From Pimelobacter simplex (GTDB taxonomy: Bacteria > Actinomycetota > Actinomycetes > Propionibacteriales > Nocardioidaceae), in NCBI GenBank assembly GCA_016803235.1, contig JADCLI010000008.1, positions 83,628 to 147,627 on the forward strand: a stretch of DNA of 64,000 bases. The letters are read 5' to 3'. The translations under genes and the position numbers were made by a program. This document shows positions 22,436-26,942 of the stretch, piece by piece. Position 1 is the stretch's first letter. Every line of letters starts with the position of its first letter. A model generated the notes under the pieces. That model was not told where the DNA came from. It did not search any database and saw nothing but the letters and a program-made list of their open reading frames with translations.

Positions 22436-22979
22436 CCGCGTCTCTCAAGAGGTCTCGAGTCGACACCACAGTGGCCGTCTTGCGCGCAGCCTGACGTGTG
22501 CATGCGTTGCCCTCTCGATCGCCGCGGCGTCGCTGGGGATCTGGAGTCCCGCCTACCGTGGATCGCCCGCGATGGAAACGGACCTCGTGGTGCGGGTGTG
22601 CATCGTCCTCGACCTGTGGCTCCTCGTCCCGCTCGACGTGTTCGCCGCGGTGAGAATGTGGCTGGGGCGGGACCTGGCCGGTGAGCTGGGTCGTTCGGCT
22701 CTCATCTCGGGCCTCGGCCACCAGGTGGGCTGTTGCGCAGCACTTGTCGTCCAGGACAGGTCCGGCGTACCTGGCTCCGCAGGCTTCGATCCTCTCGAAC
22801 CGGCCATCGTTGCCATGTGCCTGATCGGCGTCGTGAATATCCTGGTGGCCGAGCGCAGATCGACCACTACGTCGGGTGAGGGCACCGAGGTCCTCTGCCG
22901 CCCCGGTGGGGCGGGGCGGCAGAGGGGTCTTCTCAGCGGAAGGTGCAGCCGGTCGGCACGCCGAGTCGGCGCAGGATGA
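22432..22979 (+). pseudogene. Frameshifted small membrane protein
   Basis: The GTG at 22432 overlaps the upstream stop (GTGA) and begins VTASLKRSRVDTTVAVLRAA, which ends at a TGA near 22494. A second frame then carries a membrane protein: LSIAAASLGIWSPAYRGSP, METDLVVRVCIVLDLWLLVP, LISGLGHQVGCCAALV and IVAMCLIGVVNILVAER. A single-base shift near 22490 would join the two. A shorter intact product starting at ATG 22572 is possible. The start of the second frame resembles helix 1 of the neighbour at 21548, so it may be a diverged relative. The 3' end overlaps the opposite gene. Confidence 0.45.
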
Positions 22980-23136
22980 CAGCAGCCGGGCAGAACCGGG
23001 TGATGCTGGACTGCAGCAGGTTGGCGCCGACGAAGCCGGTGAGCAGCAGCCACCACGGCGACACGAGCGTGGCGAGGACGATGCTGACCAGCACCAGGGT
23101 GCCGGCGAGGGCGAGGACGAGACGGTCGACGTTCAC
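22933..23136 (-). CDS. YgaP-type (DUF2892) two-helix membrane protein
   Basis: A 67-aa protein equal to the C-terminal membrane part of YgaP-type rhodaneses: two helices (about 8-40) and the motif NLLQSSITRFCPAAVIL, with Cys in a CP pair, then a C-terminal LGVPTGC. In other bacteria this segment is fused to, or sits beside, rhodanese domains and handles sulfur species. Here the rhodanese part is absent. The GTG at 23136 overlaps the stop of the small Cys-rich gene (GTGA). It is the last gene of the MMPL-AhpD operon. Confidence 0.85.
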   Translation of the reverse strand: MNVDRLVLALAGTLVLVSIVLATLVSPWWLLLTGFVGANLLQSSITRFCPAAVILRRLGVPTGCTFR

Positions 23137-23273
23137 CGCCACCACCGCTTCGGCTTGTCGTGGCCCTCGCACCACTGGTCGGCGGGCACCCGGGCCCTCA
23201 CGGCCGCGACGTGCTGGCCGCACCCGGCCCAGGTCGTCCTGCTGCAGGTCCTGCAGCGCACGGGACGGCACAC
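23133..23273 (-). CDS. 46-aa cysteine-rich protein
   Basis: A short gene between the AhpD and DUF2892 genes, starting at GTG 23273 three nt after the AhpD stop and overlapping the next start by 4 nt. The product has five Cys: one at residue 2, C7-x2-C10, then C18 in TTWAGCGQHV, and C35 before EGHDKPKRWWR. The pattern C-x2-C-x4-W-x2-C-G-x-H resembles small actinobacterial proteins I have seen annotated as hypothetical. Metal binding (zinc-ribbon-like) is inferred. The tight packing on both sides argues strongly that it is translated. Confidence 0.7.
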   Translation of the reverse strand: MCRPVRCRTCSRTTWAGCGQHVAAVRARVPADQWCEGHDKPKRWWR

Positions 23274-23276
23274 GAC

Positions 23277-23642
23277 TCAGGCCTCCTGGGCGTCGGCGAA
23301 GGAGCAGAACGCGTCGTACGCCCGGGCGCCGTGGATGGTCGCTGGACCGCCGTGCATCAGGAAGGTGACGCCGATGGCCTCGGCGGCCTCCTGCTTGGTC
23401 GCCCCGGCGCGGGCGGCGGCCTGTGCGTGGGAGGCGATGCAGCCGTCGCAGCCCTCGACCACGCCGATCGCCATGGCGATCAGCTCCTTGGTGCGCCTAT
23501 CGAGAGCGCCGTCGGCGAACGCGGCCTGGGAGAGCGCGCCGAAGCCGGAGTAGACGTCGGGGATCGCGCGGCGCAGCTGGCGGTGGAGCGGCGAGAGCTC
23601 GTCGAGGACGGGCTTGCCGTGGGGGGAGTCGTGCTCGGTCAT
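23277..23642 (-). CDS. AhpD-like / carboxymuconolactone decarboxylase family protein
   Basis: A 121-aa all-helical CMD-family protein with the redox motif Cys65-x2-Cys68-x3-His72 (EGCDGCIASH), the AhpD proton-relay signature, so a thiol peroxidase or disulfide reductase role is likely. ATG 23642 has GGAGAGGA 7 nt upstream. It lies 25 nt after the MMPL gene in an operon controlled by a CsoR/CstR-type site, which fits a function in reactive sulfur or peroxide detoxification. The electron donor is unknown; mycothiol is plausible since mshC is in this genome. Confidence 0.9.
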   Translation of the reverse strand: MTEHDSPHGKPVLDELSPLHRQLRRAIPDVYSGFGALSQAAFADGALDRRTKELIAMAIGVVEGCDGCIASHAQAAARAGATKQEAAEAIGVTFLMHGGPATIHGARAYDAFCSFADAQEA

Positions 23643-23667
23643 GGTGGTTCCTCTCCGGTGGGTGGGC

Positions 23668-25824
23668 TCAGTCGTGGGCGAACGTGATGGTGGGCAGGAT
23701 CCGGCGCAGCCAGCCCGGTGTGGCCCAGGCGGCGCGGCCGGAGAGCCGGAGCATCACGGGCAGCAGGACCAAGCGGACCAGGAAGGCGTCGAGCAGGACG
23801 GCGACGCCGAGGATCACGCCCATCTCCTTCGGTGGCAGCGGGCCGGACAGGGCGAAGGTGAAGAAGACCGCGACCATCACGCCTCCGGCCGCGAAGATCA
23901 CCCGGCCGGAGTGAGCGACCGCGCCGACCATGGCCTCGCGGGGGTCACCCGACTTCTCCCAGTGCTCCTTGGCCGAGGCCAGCAGGAACACCGTGTAGTC
24001 CATCGCGATCGCGAAGATCATCGCGAAGAAGAAGACCGGCGCCCAGGCGTCGAGGAAGCCCTGGTGCTCGAAGCCGAGCAGGCCCGAGCCGTGGCCGTCC
24101 TGGAACAGCAGCCGCGCGACACCGAACGCGGCGGCGGTCGACAACAGGCTGGCCAGCGTCCCGAGCAGCGAGATCAGCGGAGCCTGCAGGGCGATCAGCA
24201 GCAGGAGGAAGCCGAGAAGCAGCACGACGCCGATCACGACGGGGGTGGAGCGTTGGAGCTGGTCGGTCAGGTCGATGTTCTCGACCGCAGCGCCTCCGAC
24301 GAGGGCGGACGACGGCAGGTCGGCCCGCAGCCGATCGATGGTGGCCGGCAGGGCCGGGTCCGACGGGTCGACGGTCGGCATCGCCTGGATCATCGTGAGG
24401 TCGGTGCCATCGGTCGCCGCCATCGGCGGCAGGACCGCCTCGATGCCGGCATCCTCGGTGAGCACGGTGGCCGCCGTGCCGGCATCGTCCGTGTCGACGA
24501 TGACCTGCAGCATCCCCGGAGCGCCGGGCCCGAAGGCGTCCTTGACCTGTGCGTACCCGACACGGGCGCTGGCGTCCTCGGGGAGCACCTTGATCGACGG
24601 CATCCCGGTCTTCAGCCCGACGATCGGAGCGGAGAGCGCCAGCAGGACGACGCTCGCCCCGACGCCCCAGGCGACGGGACGGCGCCACAGGTGCGCGCCC
24701 CAGCGGGCGAAGACGGGGGAGCGGTGCTCGCCCACCTTCACCCAGGGCAGCGCGAACCGGTTGATCCGGTCGTCGAGCTTGAAGAGGACCAGGGGCAGCA
24801 GAGTCAGCGTCGCGGCGAGCACGAAGACGACCGAGATCATGATCCCCCCGGCCATCGAGCGGAATGACGGCGACGGCACCAGGAGCACGGCCGACAACGA
24901 CACGAGGACGGTCGCGCCCGAGAGCAGGACGGCCTTGCCGGCCGTGTCCATCGTCTCCGCGATCGCCTGCTGCACGGAGCCGTGCTGGCCCATCCGCGCC
25001 GCTCGATACCGGACGACGAGGAAGAGCGCATAGTCGATGCCCAACGCAAGGGCGAACATCATCGCGAAGTTCATGGCCCAGATGGACACCGGAACCAGCT
25101 CGTTGATCAGCACCAGCGAGCCGGCCGACGCGACCAGTCCGGCGAGGGTCAGCAGCAGCGGGAGACCGGCCGCCACGAGGGCACCGAACGCGAGCACGAG
25201 GATCGCCAGGGTCACCGGCCAGGACACCATCTCGGAGGTCAGCATCGCCTCGAGGTTGGCTTCGTTGAAGTCCGACCAGAGCAGCGAGGACCCGGTCGGG
25301 TTGACCTGCACGGTGTCGCTCGACAGGTGCTGCAGCTGCTCCTTGAGATCGGTCGCGACCCGCACCATCTCGTTGGTGTCGGCCCCGGCACCGGCCAGGA
25401 CGACGGCAGTACGCCCGTCGGGGGAGAGGCTCGCCCCGGGCATCGGCGCGATCACCTCGGCGATCCGCGGCTCGTCCTCGAGCACCTGGGTGACCTCGGC
25501 GAGCACTCGTGCGCCCTCGCCCTGGTCGAGCGGGCCGTCTGTGCTGTGCACGACGACCTGGATGGCGTGGCTGGCGTTGCCGCCGAAGTGCTCCTCCGCG
25601 AGGTCGCGCACGGCCACGGACTCCGAGCCGTCGGCCTGCCAGCCGGCGCCGGACAGGTTCTTCTCGACCGCCGGTGCGAAGATCCCGAGCCCGATCACGA
25701 TCGCGATCCAAGCGATGCCGACGATCCGGCGGTGCTCGGTCACCCAGACCCCGAGCCGGCCGAGCGGTCCCGGCAGCCAGGTGTGGGGAGCCGCCTCCGG
25801 TGCGGCCGATGTCGTCTGCGCCAC
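23668..25824 (-). CDS. MMPL/RND family transporter
   Basis: A 718-aa RND-superfamily protein of the MmpL/YdfJ type. It has a helix at about 25-50, a first extracytoplasmic domain (about 60-190), five or six helices with the proton-relay region FAMMFALALGIDYALFLVVR near 260, a second outer domain (about 370-540), and a second helix bundle with FFFAMIFAIAMDYTVFLLAS near 610. It probably exports a lipid or drug using the proton gradient. The GTG at 25824 is chosen because AAAGGAGG lies 7 nt upstream; the earlier GTG 25842 contains that site. It is transcribed from the divergent G/C-palindrome region. Confidence 0.93.
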   Translation of the reverse strand: MAQTTSAAPEAAPHTWLPGPLGRLGVWVTEHRRIVGIAWIAIVIGLGIFAPAVEKNLSGAGWQADGSESVAVRDLAEEHFGGNASHAIQVVVHSTDGPLDQGEGARVLAEVTQVLEDEPRIAEVIAPMPGASLSPDGRTAVVLAGAGADTNEMVRVATDLKEQLQHLSSDTVQVNPTGSSLLWSDFNEANLEAMLTSEMVSWPVTLAILVLAFGALVAAGLPLLLTLAGLVASAGSLVLINELVPVSIWAMNFAMMFALALGIDYALFLVVRYRAARMGQHGSVQQAIAETMDTAGKAVLLSGATVLVSLSAVLLVPSPSFRSMAGGIMISVVFVLAATLTLLPLVLFKLDDRINRFALPWVKVGEHRSPVFARWGAHLWRRPVAWGVGASVVLLALSAPIVGLKTGMPSIKVLPEDASARVGYAQVKDAFGPGAPGMLQVIVDTDDAGTAATVLTEDAGIEAVLPPMAATDGTDLTMIQAMPTVDPSDPALPATIDRLRADLPSSALVGGAAVENIDLTDQLQRSTPVVIGVVLLLGFLLLLIALQAPLISLLGTLASLLSTAAAFGVARLLFQDGHGSGLLGFEHQGFLDAWAPVFFFAMIFAIAMDYTVFLLASAKEHWEKSGDPREAMVGAVAHSGRVIFAAGGVMVAVFFTFALSGPLPPKEMGVILGVAVLLDAFLVRLVLLPVMLRLSGRAAWATPGWLRRILPTITFAHD

Positions 25825-25842
25825 GGTGGCGCCTCCTTTCAC

Positions 25843-25863
25843 GTTATCCCCCCGGGGGGTTAC
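25843..25863. promoter_or_regulatory. CsoR/CstR-type operator palindrome, left copy
   Basis: GTTATCCCCCCGGGGGGTTA plus C: inverted repeat with a C6-G6 core and A/T flanks. It lies 19 bp upstream of the MMPL start. CsoR-family repressors bind G/C-tract palindromes of this design, and the likely repressor gene is 480 bp away. Confidence 0.75.
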
Positions 25864-25878
25864 GATGAAACGATAACA

Positions 25879-25898
25879 GATCCCCCTGGGGGGATAAC
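25879..25898. promoter_or_regulatory. CsoR/CstR-type operator palindrome, right copy
   Basis: GATCCCCCTGGGGGGATAAC: a second G/C-tract palindrome, 16 bp after the first, ending 21 bp before the DUF302 ATG. One copy per divergent promoter suggests symmetric repression. Confidence 0.75.
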
Positions 25899-25919
25899 GA
25901 ATCGACGAAGGAGAGACCG

Positions 25920-26342
25920 ATGGACCTCGCAGAGTTCACGCTGAGCACGATCGTTGTGGCGTCGTACGACGAAACGGTGGCGCGCGTGCGGGACCTGCTC
26001 GGCCACGCCGGCTTCGGCGTGCTCACGGAGATCGACATCCGCGCGACGCTGAAGGCGAAGCTCGACGTGGATGTCCCGGCGCAGCTGATCCTCGGCGCCT
26101 GTCGACCGCAGCTCGCACACCGTGCACTCCGGGTCGAGCCACGGGTCGCTGCGCTGATGCCGTGCAACGTCGTGGTCGCCGACGCGGGGGACGGGCGGAC
26201 CCGGGTCGACGTGATGGACCCCGCCCTGCTCGCATCGCTGGCGCCCGATTCCGAGCTCGCCGAGGTGGCTGCCGACGGCCGCGCCCGGCTCACCGGCATG
26301 ATGGAGGCACTGACGGCCGGAGAGACGGGAGCGATCGCATGA
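25920..26342 (+). CDS. DUF302 domain protein
   Basis: A 140-aa DUF302 protein. It has the family features ETVARVRDLLGHAGFGVLTE near residue 20, IDIRATLKAKLDVD, ILGACRPQLAHRAL and LMPCNVVV with a conserved Cys. The family has no settled function but often sits next to CsoR-type regulators and sulfur or metal stress genes. ATG 25920 follows AAGGAGAG by 5 nt. Its stop overlaps the repressor start (ATGA), so the two are made together. It is preceded by the right-hand palindrome. Confidence 0.9.
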   Translation: MDLAEFTLSTIVVASYDETVARVRDLLGHAGFGVLTEIDIRATLKAKLDVDVPAQLILGACRPQLAHRALRVEPRVAALMPCNVVVADAGDGRTRVDVMDPALLASLAPDSELAEVAADGRARLTGMMEALTAGETGAIA

Positions 26343-26599
26343 AGCTGGAGCCCGAGGAGATCAAGGCGATCATCACCCGCCTCAAGCGCGCGAACGGACA
26401 CCTCGCCTCGGTGATCCGGATGCTCGAGGAGGGCGCGGAGTGCGAGGACGCGCTGATGCAGCTCGCCGCGGTCAACAAGGCCGTCGGGCGCGGTGGCTAC
26501 GCGCTGGTCGCCACCGGGCTGCAGAAGTGCCTGGTCGAGGGCGGACCGGACTCGGTGGACGCGAAGAAGATGGAGAAGCTGTTCCTCGCGCTGGCGTGA
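26339..26599 (+). CDS. CsoR/FrmR-family repressor, CstR-like (two Cys, no His)
   Basis: An 86-aa all-helical DUF156 repressor. The first ligand Cys35 sits in EEGAECEDAL and the second Cys64 in TGLQKCLVEG. Copper-sensing CsoR has a His four residues before the second Cys; here that position is Gly60. The two-Cys arrangement matches persulfide-sensing CstR, which represses sulfur-oxidation genes until Cys-Cys polysulfide links form. It probably binds the palindromes at 25843 and 25879, controlling itself, DUF302, and the MMPL-AhpD-Cys-rich-YgaP operon. The persulfide-sensor reading is inferred; Cu(I) cannot be fully excluded. Confidence 0.9.
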   Translation: MKLEPEEIKAIITRLKRANGHLASVIRMLEEGAECEDALMQLAAVNKAVGRGGYALVATGLQKCLVEGGPDSVDAKKMEKLFLALA

Positions 26600-26942
26600 G
26601 CCTTGGCTCGAGGCCGCGTCAGGTGCGGCGATTGCAGGACACTGGTTCCCTTCCCTGAAGGTGGTCCAGCGACGACGGAGGGCGCGAAGCGCGACGACGC
26701 GCTGAGGCAGCTCGCCGTCGTCGATATGGCCGTCGGCCGCCGCGGCTACGCCCTGGTCGGAGTCCGAGTGGGGATCACGTCCCTCGGGGCCATTCCGGAC
26801 GGTAGCGTCGGGATCAACGGTCGACCTCGATCGGATCACACAAGAAGACCCGGTCCGAACGCGATCGAACGGGTGGCAACGGGAGCTGGATCTCACGCTC
26901 AGAACGCCACTTCGGCTCTGTTGAGCGGAAGAATCCACTTGC
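26600..26942 (+). pseudogene. Gene-free stretch with a decayed csoR copy (about 26680-26770)
   Basis: Bases 26690-26760 read DDALRQLAVVDMAVGRRGYA and then LVGVR, matching EDALMQLAAVNKAVGRGGYA of the intact repressor 250 bp upstream at about 14 of 20 positions. The first Cys is replaced by Asp/Arg, and no repressor-like sequence continues on either side. It looks like a decayed tandem duplicate of the 3' half of the repressor gene. The rest of the stretch holds nothing I can identify. Confidence 0.55.

Follow-up and report, generated by a model that had tools for sequence, protein, structure and literature searches.

What does a CsoR-family repressor respond to when the histidine of the copper sensors is missing from it, and what do the genes beside it do for the cell? 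Both questions are raised by a six-gene locus at 22933..26599 of a 64,000-nucleotide stretch of the Pimelobacter simplex genome (contig JADCLI010000008.1), which is called the window here. The residues of the repressor, the operator-like sites next to it, and the repeated association of same-type regulators in relatives with genes for persulfide dioxygenase (PDO), rhodanese and TauE all point to persulfide sensing. The locus is accordingly read, with a probability of about 0.76, as a stress module for sulfane sulfur (persulfides and polysulfides) under a repressor of the CstR/ScCsoR type; the figure covers sensing and regulation together, as judged from sequence and computational analysis. All six open reading frames (ORFs) named in a preliminary description of the window are present, and five have Pfam families, the exception being a 46-aa protein. 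Together with the two sites between them they are as follows.

22933..23142, minus strand: YgaP-like transmembrane protein of the DUF2892 type, 67-69 aa (PF11127, 3.3e-11)
23133..23273, minus strand: 46-aa Cys-rich protein, here tinyCys, with CxxC-x7-CxxH plus C2 and C35 (36-row alignment)
23277..23642, minus strand: CMD/AhpD-like protein, 121 aa, E53/C65/C68/H72 (PF02627, 9.4e-23; TIGR00778 ahpD_dom, 4.5e-16; AhpD-named 5dik, 2.4e-24)
23668..25824, minus strand: MMPL/RND-type transporter, 718 aa, Asp-Tyr (DY) pairs 264 and 609 (PF03176, 1.5e-63)
25844..25863 (about), no strand: operator-like palindrome 1, adjoining the MMPL start (pattern scans)
25878..25897 (about), no strand: operator-like palindrome 2, on the DUF302-start side (pattern scans)
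25920..26342, plus strand: DUF302 protein, 140 aa (PF03625, 2.3e-21; homologs 1j3m and 1q9u)
26339..26599, plus strand: CsoR/CstR-family repressor, 86 aa, C35-G60-C64 (PF02583, 2.3e-18; residue check)

The genes form two divergent operons, rightward DUF302-csoR and leftward MMPL-CMD-tinyCys-YgaP, with both palindromes in the 95 bp that separate them. The DUF302 and csoR frames overlap in ATGA; on the left, gaps of 25 nt and 3 nt are followed by an overlap of the last two frames, tinyCys and YgaP, so each side is taken to be one transcription unit. GTG 25824 is the most likely start of the MMPL gene (718 aa), which a Shine-Dalgarno-like AAAGGAGG precedes; for the YgaP-type protein the most likely start is GTG 23142 or 23136 rather than that of the longer ORF. 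AAGGAG precedes DUF302, and a sigma-70 promoter scan gave no result. The host genome is 5.36 Mb in size, and its close relatives by module locus are mostly Nocardioides.

The repressor is a member of the CsoR family (PF02583) with two conserved cysteines, Cys35 and Cys64, and no histidine where a Cu(I) ligand would be expected between the two. That place is held by Gly60, just as the preliminary description had it, and the C-H-C ligand set of the CsoR copper sensors is therefore absent. The CstR of Staphylococcus aureus presumably lacks this His ligand as well. Over all collected rows the pattern at 35/60/64 is C-G-C in 134 (84 distinct sequences), C-A-C in one and C-H-C in 19. A regulator encoded on a Streptomyces plasmid (L128) is identical to the window repressor at 43 of 86 aligned places; its cysteines are numbered 37 and 66, and its gene lies in one cluster with rhodanese, tauE and PDO genes. 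The likeness of this plasmid regulator to ScCsoR (SCO0620) is one of Cys numbers and gene set. Two further traces of csoR occur in the P. simplex genome. On the plus strand 3' of csoR, a degenerate stretch at 26603-26780 resembles the C-terminal half of a second CsoR (about 70% over 27 aa) and is likely a decayed duplicate, while at one end of another contig, close to its start (L123, C16), a CsoR C-terminus fragment, very like the window repressor, reads as a decayed or cut second copy.

The operator-like sites are the second line of evidence. The two G/C-tract palindromes reported between the divergent operons, TTATCCCCCCGGGGGGTTA and GATCCCCCTGGGGGGATAA, are of the CCCCCC/GGGGG type, lie about 35 bp apart and exceed chance expectation by far: in the window a first pattern gives five overlapping matches, all at these sites, as compared with a mean of 0.10 after shuffling, and a second pattern gives two matches against a first-order Markov mean of 0.015. 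An initial operator pattern was too strict, missing even the window's own sites, and was replaced by a 15-base core; searched through the whole genome with at most one mismatch, this core matched only these two places. Since no near-exact core lies outside the window, the regulon in this species is probably the module locus alone. Two palindromes 31-36 bp apart are found in 50 of 62 loci, with one in 8, none in 2 and more than two in 2 (whole locus scanned). Conserved pseudo-palindromes of this G/C-tract kind at the module promoters make good candidate operators.

The third line of evidence comes from relatives. Regulators of the actinobacterial type were gathered at 68 loci, namely 62 from the genome scan (80 less 18 proteobacterial ones) and six plasmid regions, some of these stretches being short; 65 of the regulators are C-G-C, one is C-A-C, and two are broken and unclassified. 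Matches to DUF302 were found at 57 of the loci, tinyCys at 47, MMPL at 46, PDO at 29 (counting a weak 31% match in L053), rhodanese and TauE at 26 each, YgaP at 24 and CMD at 19. At least one of PDO, rhodanese and TauE, which act on sulfane sulfur and sulfite, is present at 30 of the 68, and a frequent sister layout has rhodanese-PDO-TauE-MMPL-tinyCys-YgaP divergent from DUF302-csoR. Pfam assigns the PDO of these relatives a metallo-beta-lactamase and a rhodanese domain, and bears out the rhodanese and TauE families. Forty DUF302-anchored regions from related genomes yield an inventory of their own (CsoR 35, tinyCys 27, MMPL 26, PDO 14, CMD 13); they share species with the 68 loci, and the two sets of counts are not additive.

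Nor is the complete set peculiar to P. simplex, as the preliminary description had allowed it might be: all six genes stand together at 10 of the 68 loci and in 5 of the 40 regions, with a broken or shortened frame for the MMPL in L048 and for the regulator in L077 and L096. The hosts of the full six-gene loci are several Nocardioidaceae and one Propionibacteriales metagenome-assembled genome, and partial sets reach other families. On a Tsukamurella plasmid (L125), MMPL, DUF302 and csoR occur together with a flavin oxidoreductase, which has a sub-threshold match to sulfide dehydrogenase, and with an Rv2466c-like mycothiol-dependent protein; these two lie at L125:1081-2867, downstream of MMPL and DUF2892. 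A contig titled Knoellia remsis (L066) and another titled Nocardioides allogilvus (L061) agree in layout and have identical repressors, which reflects either a recent transfer or a mislabelled contig.

How the module might dispose of sulfane sulfur is suggested by which genes exclude each other. CMD and PDO never occur in one locus, either among the 68 loci or among the 40 regions. A regulator tree of 87 non-redundant rows (26 with CMD, 35 with PDO, 26 with neither) calls for at least four switches between the two; it has 87 columns and 14 starred branches of 82, and is weakly resolved. A smaller first tree of 68 rows needed only two. In both trees L053, with its weak PDO match, was set by hand to "neither", a class outside the switch count, and short regulators were dropped (below 71 aa in the 68-row tree and below 75 aa in the 87-row tree, L093 and L096 included). 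These switches are suggestive only of repeated replacement of PDO by CMD. The P. simplex genome itself keeps a PDO-like gene elsewhere, at L119:5491-6855 (C17), beside an MFS gene and with two rhodanese stretches and a metallo-beta-lactamase match just below threshold; the exclusion of CMD and PDO therefore holds per operon, not per cell. The favoured reading is that the AhpD-like enzyme would lower sulfane sulfur where PDO is missing.

The output genes have features that bear on this. In the CMD protein, E53, C65, C68 and H72 have the spacing E-x11-C-xx-C-xxx-H, which we take to be that of the AhpD active site, and the residues fit a working site; 10 of 14 CMD matches have a module gene nearby. 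Of the four that do not, two have a palindrome upstream, immediately in one case and at about 400 bp in the other. The transporter has, besides its PF03176 match, Asp-Tyr pairs at 264 and 609, presumably equivalent to the paired Asp-Tyr in the transmembrane core of MmpL3, structures of which match it at 4.6e-44. The 58 genomes searched contain 24 MMPL matches at E<=1e-100, 73-100% identical and with the window transporter included, and every one is tied to the system: for 22 of them a further module gene lies within about 1.5 kb, and for two the tie is the upstream double palindrome alone. At L218 and L219 an MMPL gene has two operator-like palindromes upstream and the stretch read contains no csoR, which would fit control in trans.

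The smaller proteins are more cryptic. In the DUF302 protein C61 and C82 both fall within conserved motifs, GAC and LPCNVVV being kept in at least 90% of 87 rows. The YgaP-type protein is indeed a membrane segment without rhodanese, Pfam giving no match to that domain. In tinyCys, C2, C7, C10, C18, H21 and C35 are invariant in an alignment of 36 rows chosen from 63, from which odd rows lacking at least one conserved residue (L047, L079, L080) were excluded, and 23 of 29 loci of relatives read (42 places listed) have module genes nearby. A structural model of tinyCys (mean pLDDT 76.8, pTM 0.42) contains strands at 3-6 and 13-16 and a helix at 19-28, and found no Foldseek match to solved structures at E<=0.001. 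The predicted hairpin and helix, taken with CxxC-x7-CxxH, suggest a possible treble-clef-like zinc site; the protein could equally carry sulfur on its cysteines.

Taken together, these observations can be arranged into a working scheme. Reduced repressor would occupy both palindromes and keep both divergent operons silent. When persulfides build up, Cys35 would be persulfidated and, with Cys64, drive release from the DNA, by analogy with ScCsoR and CstR; DUF302-csoR and MMPL-CMD-tinyCys-YgaP would then be induced together, with autoregulation. Their products would bring sulfane sulfur down while bypassing the usual persulfide dioxygenase. Going by their families, the AhpD-like CxxC enzyme would reduce thiol persulfides or the resulting disulfides, DUF302 and tinyCys would deal with thiol-bound sulfur or buffer it, and the MMPL would use the proton gradient to expel a sulfur-modified metabolite. 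We infer the effector, the DNA release and what each output gene does chemically, as well as the export or repair of persulfides, lipid or thiol, already suggested in the preliminary description, and mycothiol use by the host cell is assumed from kinship. The more specific version, in which the AhpD-like enzyme replaces PDO, the product that the dedicated MMPL pumps out is a thiol persulfide or a polysulfide (for example mycothiol- or lipid-bound) and tinyCys assists as a zinc- or sulfur-binding protein, is tentative and on balance doubtful.

Several observations weigh against the sulfane-sulfur reading. No PDO, rhodanese or TauE gene appears at 38 of the 68 loci in the stretch covered, some stretches being short, and the window module has no PDO, rhodanese, TauE or SQR gene. 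The PDO-like gene elsewhere in the genome (35%) has no near-exact operator to tie it to the system, none being found outside the window, and a flavin oxidoreductase query, itself not proven to be an SQR, gave nothing clear in this genome (best 33% over part). Four of the 14 CMD relatives and 6 of the 29 tinyCys loci are without a module gene nearby. Many roles of the AhpD-like and MMPL families have nothing to do with sulfur, the MMPL family being best known for lipid and siderophore export. By score, the best solved relatives of the repressor are the "putative cytosolic protein" 6ahx and the CsoR 2hh7, both ahead of 7mq1, which we take to be a CstR. The operator core of ScCsoR is ATACC-n6-GGTAT, shorter than the C/G tract of the window (PMC7533328; here and below, papers are cited from excerpts of their text). 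Finally, Thermus TTHA1953, a functional CstR-like regulator that its authors place nearest to CstR, still bound DNA when NaHS was present (PMC10318464).

The most likely alternative is a general thiol-stress module, in which electrophiles, disulfides, HNO, selenite or tellurite, or oxidants are sensed rather than mainly persulfides, and the MMPL exports a toxic thiol conjugate. HNO is another reactant of CstR (PMC5480029), as are selenite and tellurite (PMC5016687); peroxide defence employs AhpD-like proteins as thiol reductase partners (PMC8945050); and the Rv2466c-like protein beside the Tsukamurella relative is mycothiol-dependent. This alternative has a real if small chance of being right, against which stands the repeated adjacency of same-type regulators to PDO, rhodanese and TauE genes. 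Much less can be said for a sensor of copper or another metal, in which case the pump and the Cys proteins would confer metal tolerance. The CsoR family, a Cys-rich small protein and an MMPL of the efflux type are what such a system might contain, and the preliminary description had kept metal as a second option to persulfide. It is the persulfide half of that proposal that survives, on residues, operators and relatives. Glycine occupies the His-ligand place in the window repressor and in the 134 C-G-C rows, and no Pfam family in the module is a dedicated metal transporter. Moreover, the only other CsoR-family match above cut-off in the genome is a paralog with C-H-C, and a copper-type HMA P-type ATPase lies about 1.2 kb away from it, so the copper job seems already filled.

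The remaining 18 C-H-C rows are genome-scan loci, all with proteobacterial titles; cation efflux, MFS and HupE/UreJ proteins are the three neighbours scanned there, and the rows are probably metal regulators of another kind. At these loci (L094-L112 less L096), the MFS gene of one cluster occurs in 12 of 18. An FrmR-like formaldehyde sensor is, by a little, the least probable option of all: Cys35 is present and NCBIfam gives a weak FrmR match (1.5e-9, 38.1 bits against a cut-off of 133), but none of the five relatives that were read with annotation has a gene annotated as formaldehyde dehydrogenase. Copper and formaldehyde sensing were both rejected on residues and gene context.

In the CsoR-type persulfide circuits of the literature read, sulfane sulfur is disposed of by PDO oxidation and sulfite export. 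If the present reading is true, the locus would point to a second route in mycothiol-type bacteria, which keeps the sensor type and the operators, puts an AhpD-like enzyme in the place of PDO and adds a dedicated MMPL. Testable functions also follow for DUF302, for a YgaP-type membrane protein that stands alone and for a Cys-rich micro-protein that has no name, and the MMPL family gains a possible link to sulfur; should reduction and export hold as well, this would be the first MMPL transporter with a role in sulfur stress, as far as the literature searched shows. That literature was open access, with most subscription papers outside its scope, and yielded no paper combining CstR, persulfide and DUF302 and none combining MMPL and persulfide dioxygenase. 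Within it, the output set of MMPL pump, AhpD-like enzyme and tiny CxxC/CxxH protein, with no PDO, was not found described and is in that sense new.

The sensor switch, by comparison, is of a kind already known from Streptomyces. Repression by ScCsoR in S. coelicolor extends to PDO, TauE and rhodanese and to ScCsoR itself; polysulfide frees it from DNA, Cys37 becomes persulfidated, and both Cys37 and Cys66 are required (PMC7533328). Like the window module, for which autoregulation is proposed, that circuit is actinobacterial and autoregulated, has a CsoR-like repressor whose two cysteines lie 29 residues apart, and shows a pair of palindromic sites at a target promoter (PMC7533328). The two differ in output, which in the window is MMPL, AhpD-like protein, tinyCys, YgaP-type transmembrane protein and DUF302. 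The S. aureus CstR/cst operon likewise pairs a dithiol per- and polysulfide-sensing CsoR-like repressor with sulfur detoxification, though in a Firmicute, with cysteines C31/C60 and with cstA, cstB and sqr as outputs (PMC5480029), and the CstR-like YrkD of B. licheniformis is a sulfane sulfur sensor (PMC9918477).

A closer parallel for the gene content is the SUL module of the Antarctic Arthrobacter plasmids pA8H1, pA40H2 and pA58H2, described as a sulfur dioxygenase, CsoR, two rhodaneses, TauE, MFS, DUF302 and a small hypothetical protein (PMC6305408). It shares with the window DUF302 and a CsoR-type repressor that is 51% identical, and a tinyCys match beside csoR in pA8H1 is probably its "small hypothetical protein". 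It differs in having the dioxygenase, rhodaneses, TauE and MFS and, in the description excerpted, no MMPL or CMD, the MMPL of that paper belonging to another module (PMC6305408). DUF302 genes are present also in the sox clusters of several sulfur oxidisers (PMC5037610). As for the pump, its family match and DY pairs ally it with mycobacterial MmpL3 and other MMPL transporters, from which it is set apart by its 718 aa and by its tie to the module regulon in 24 of 24 close relatives.

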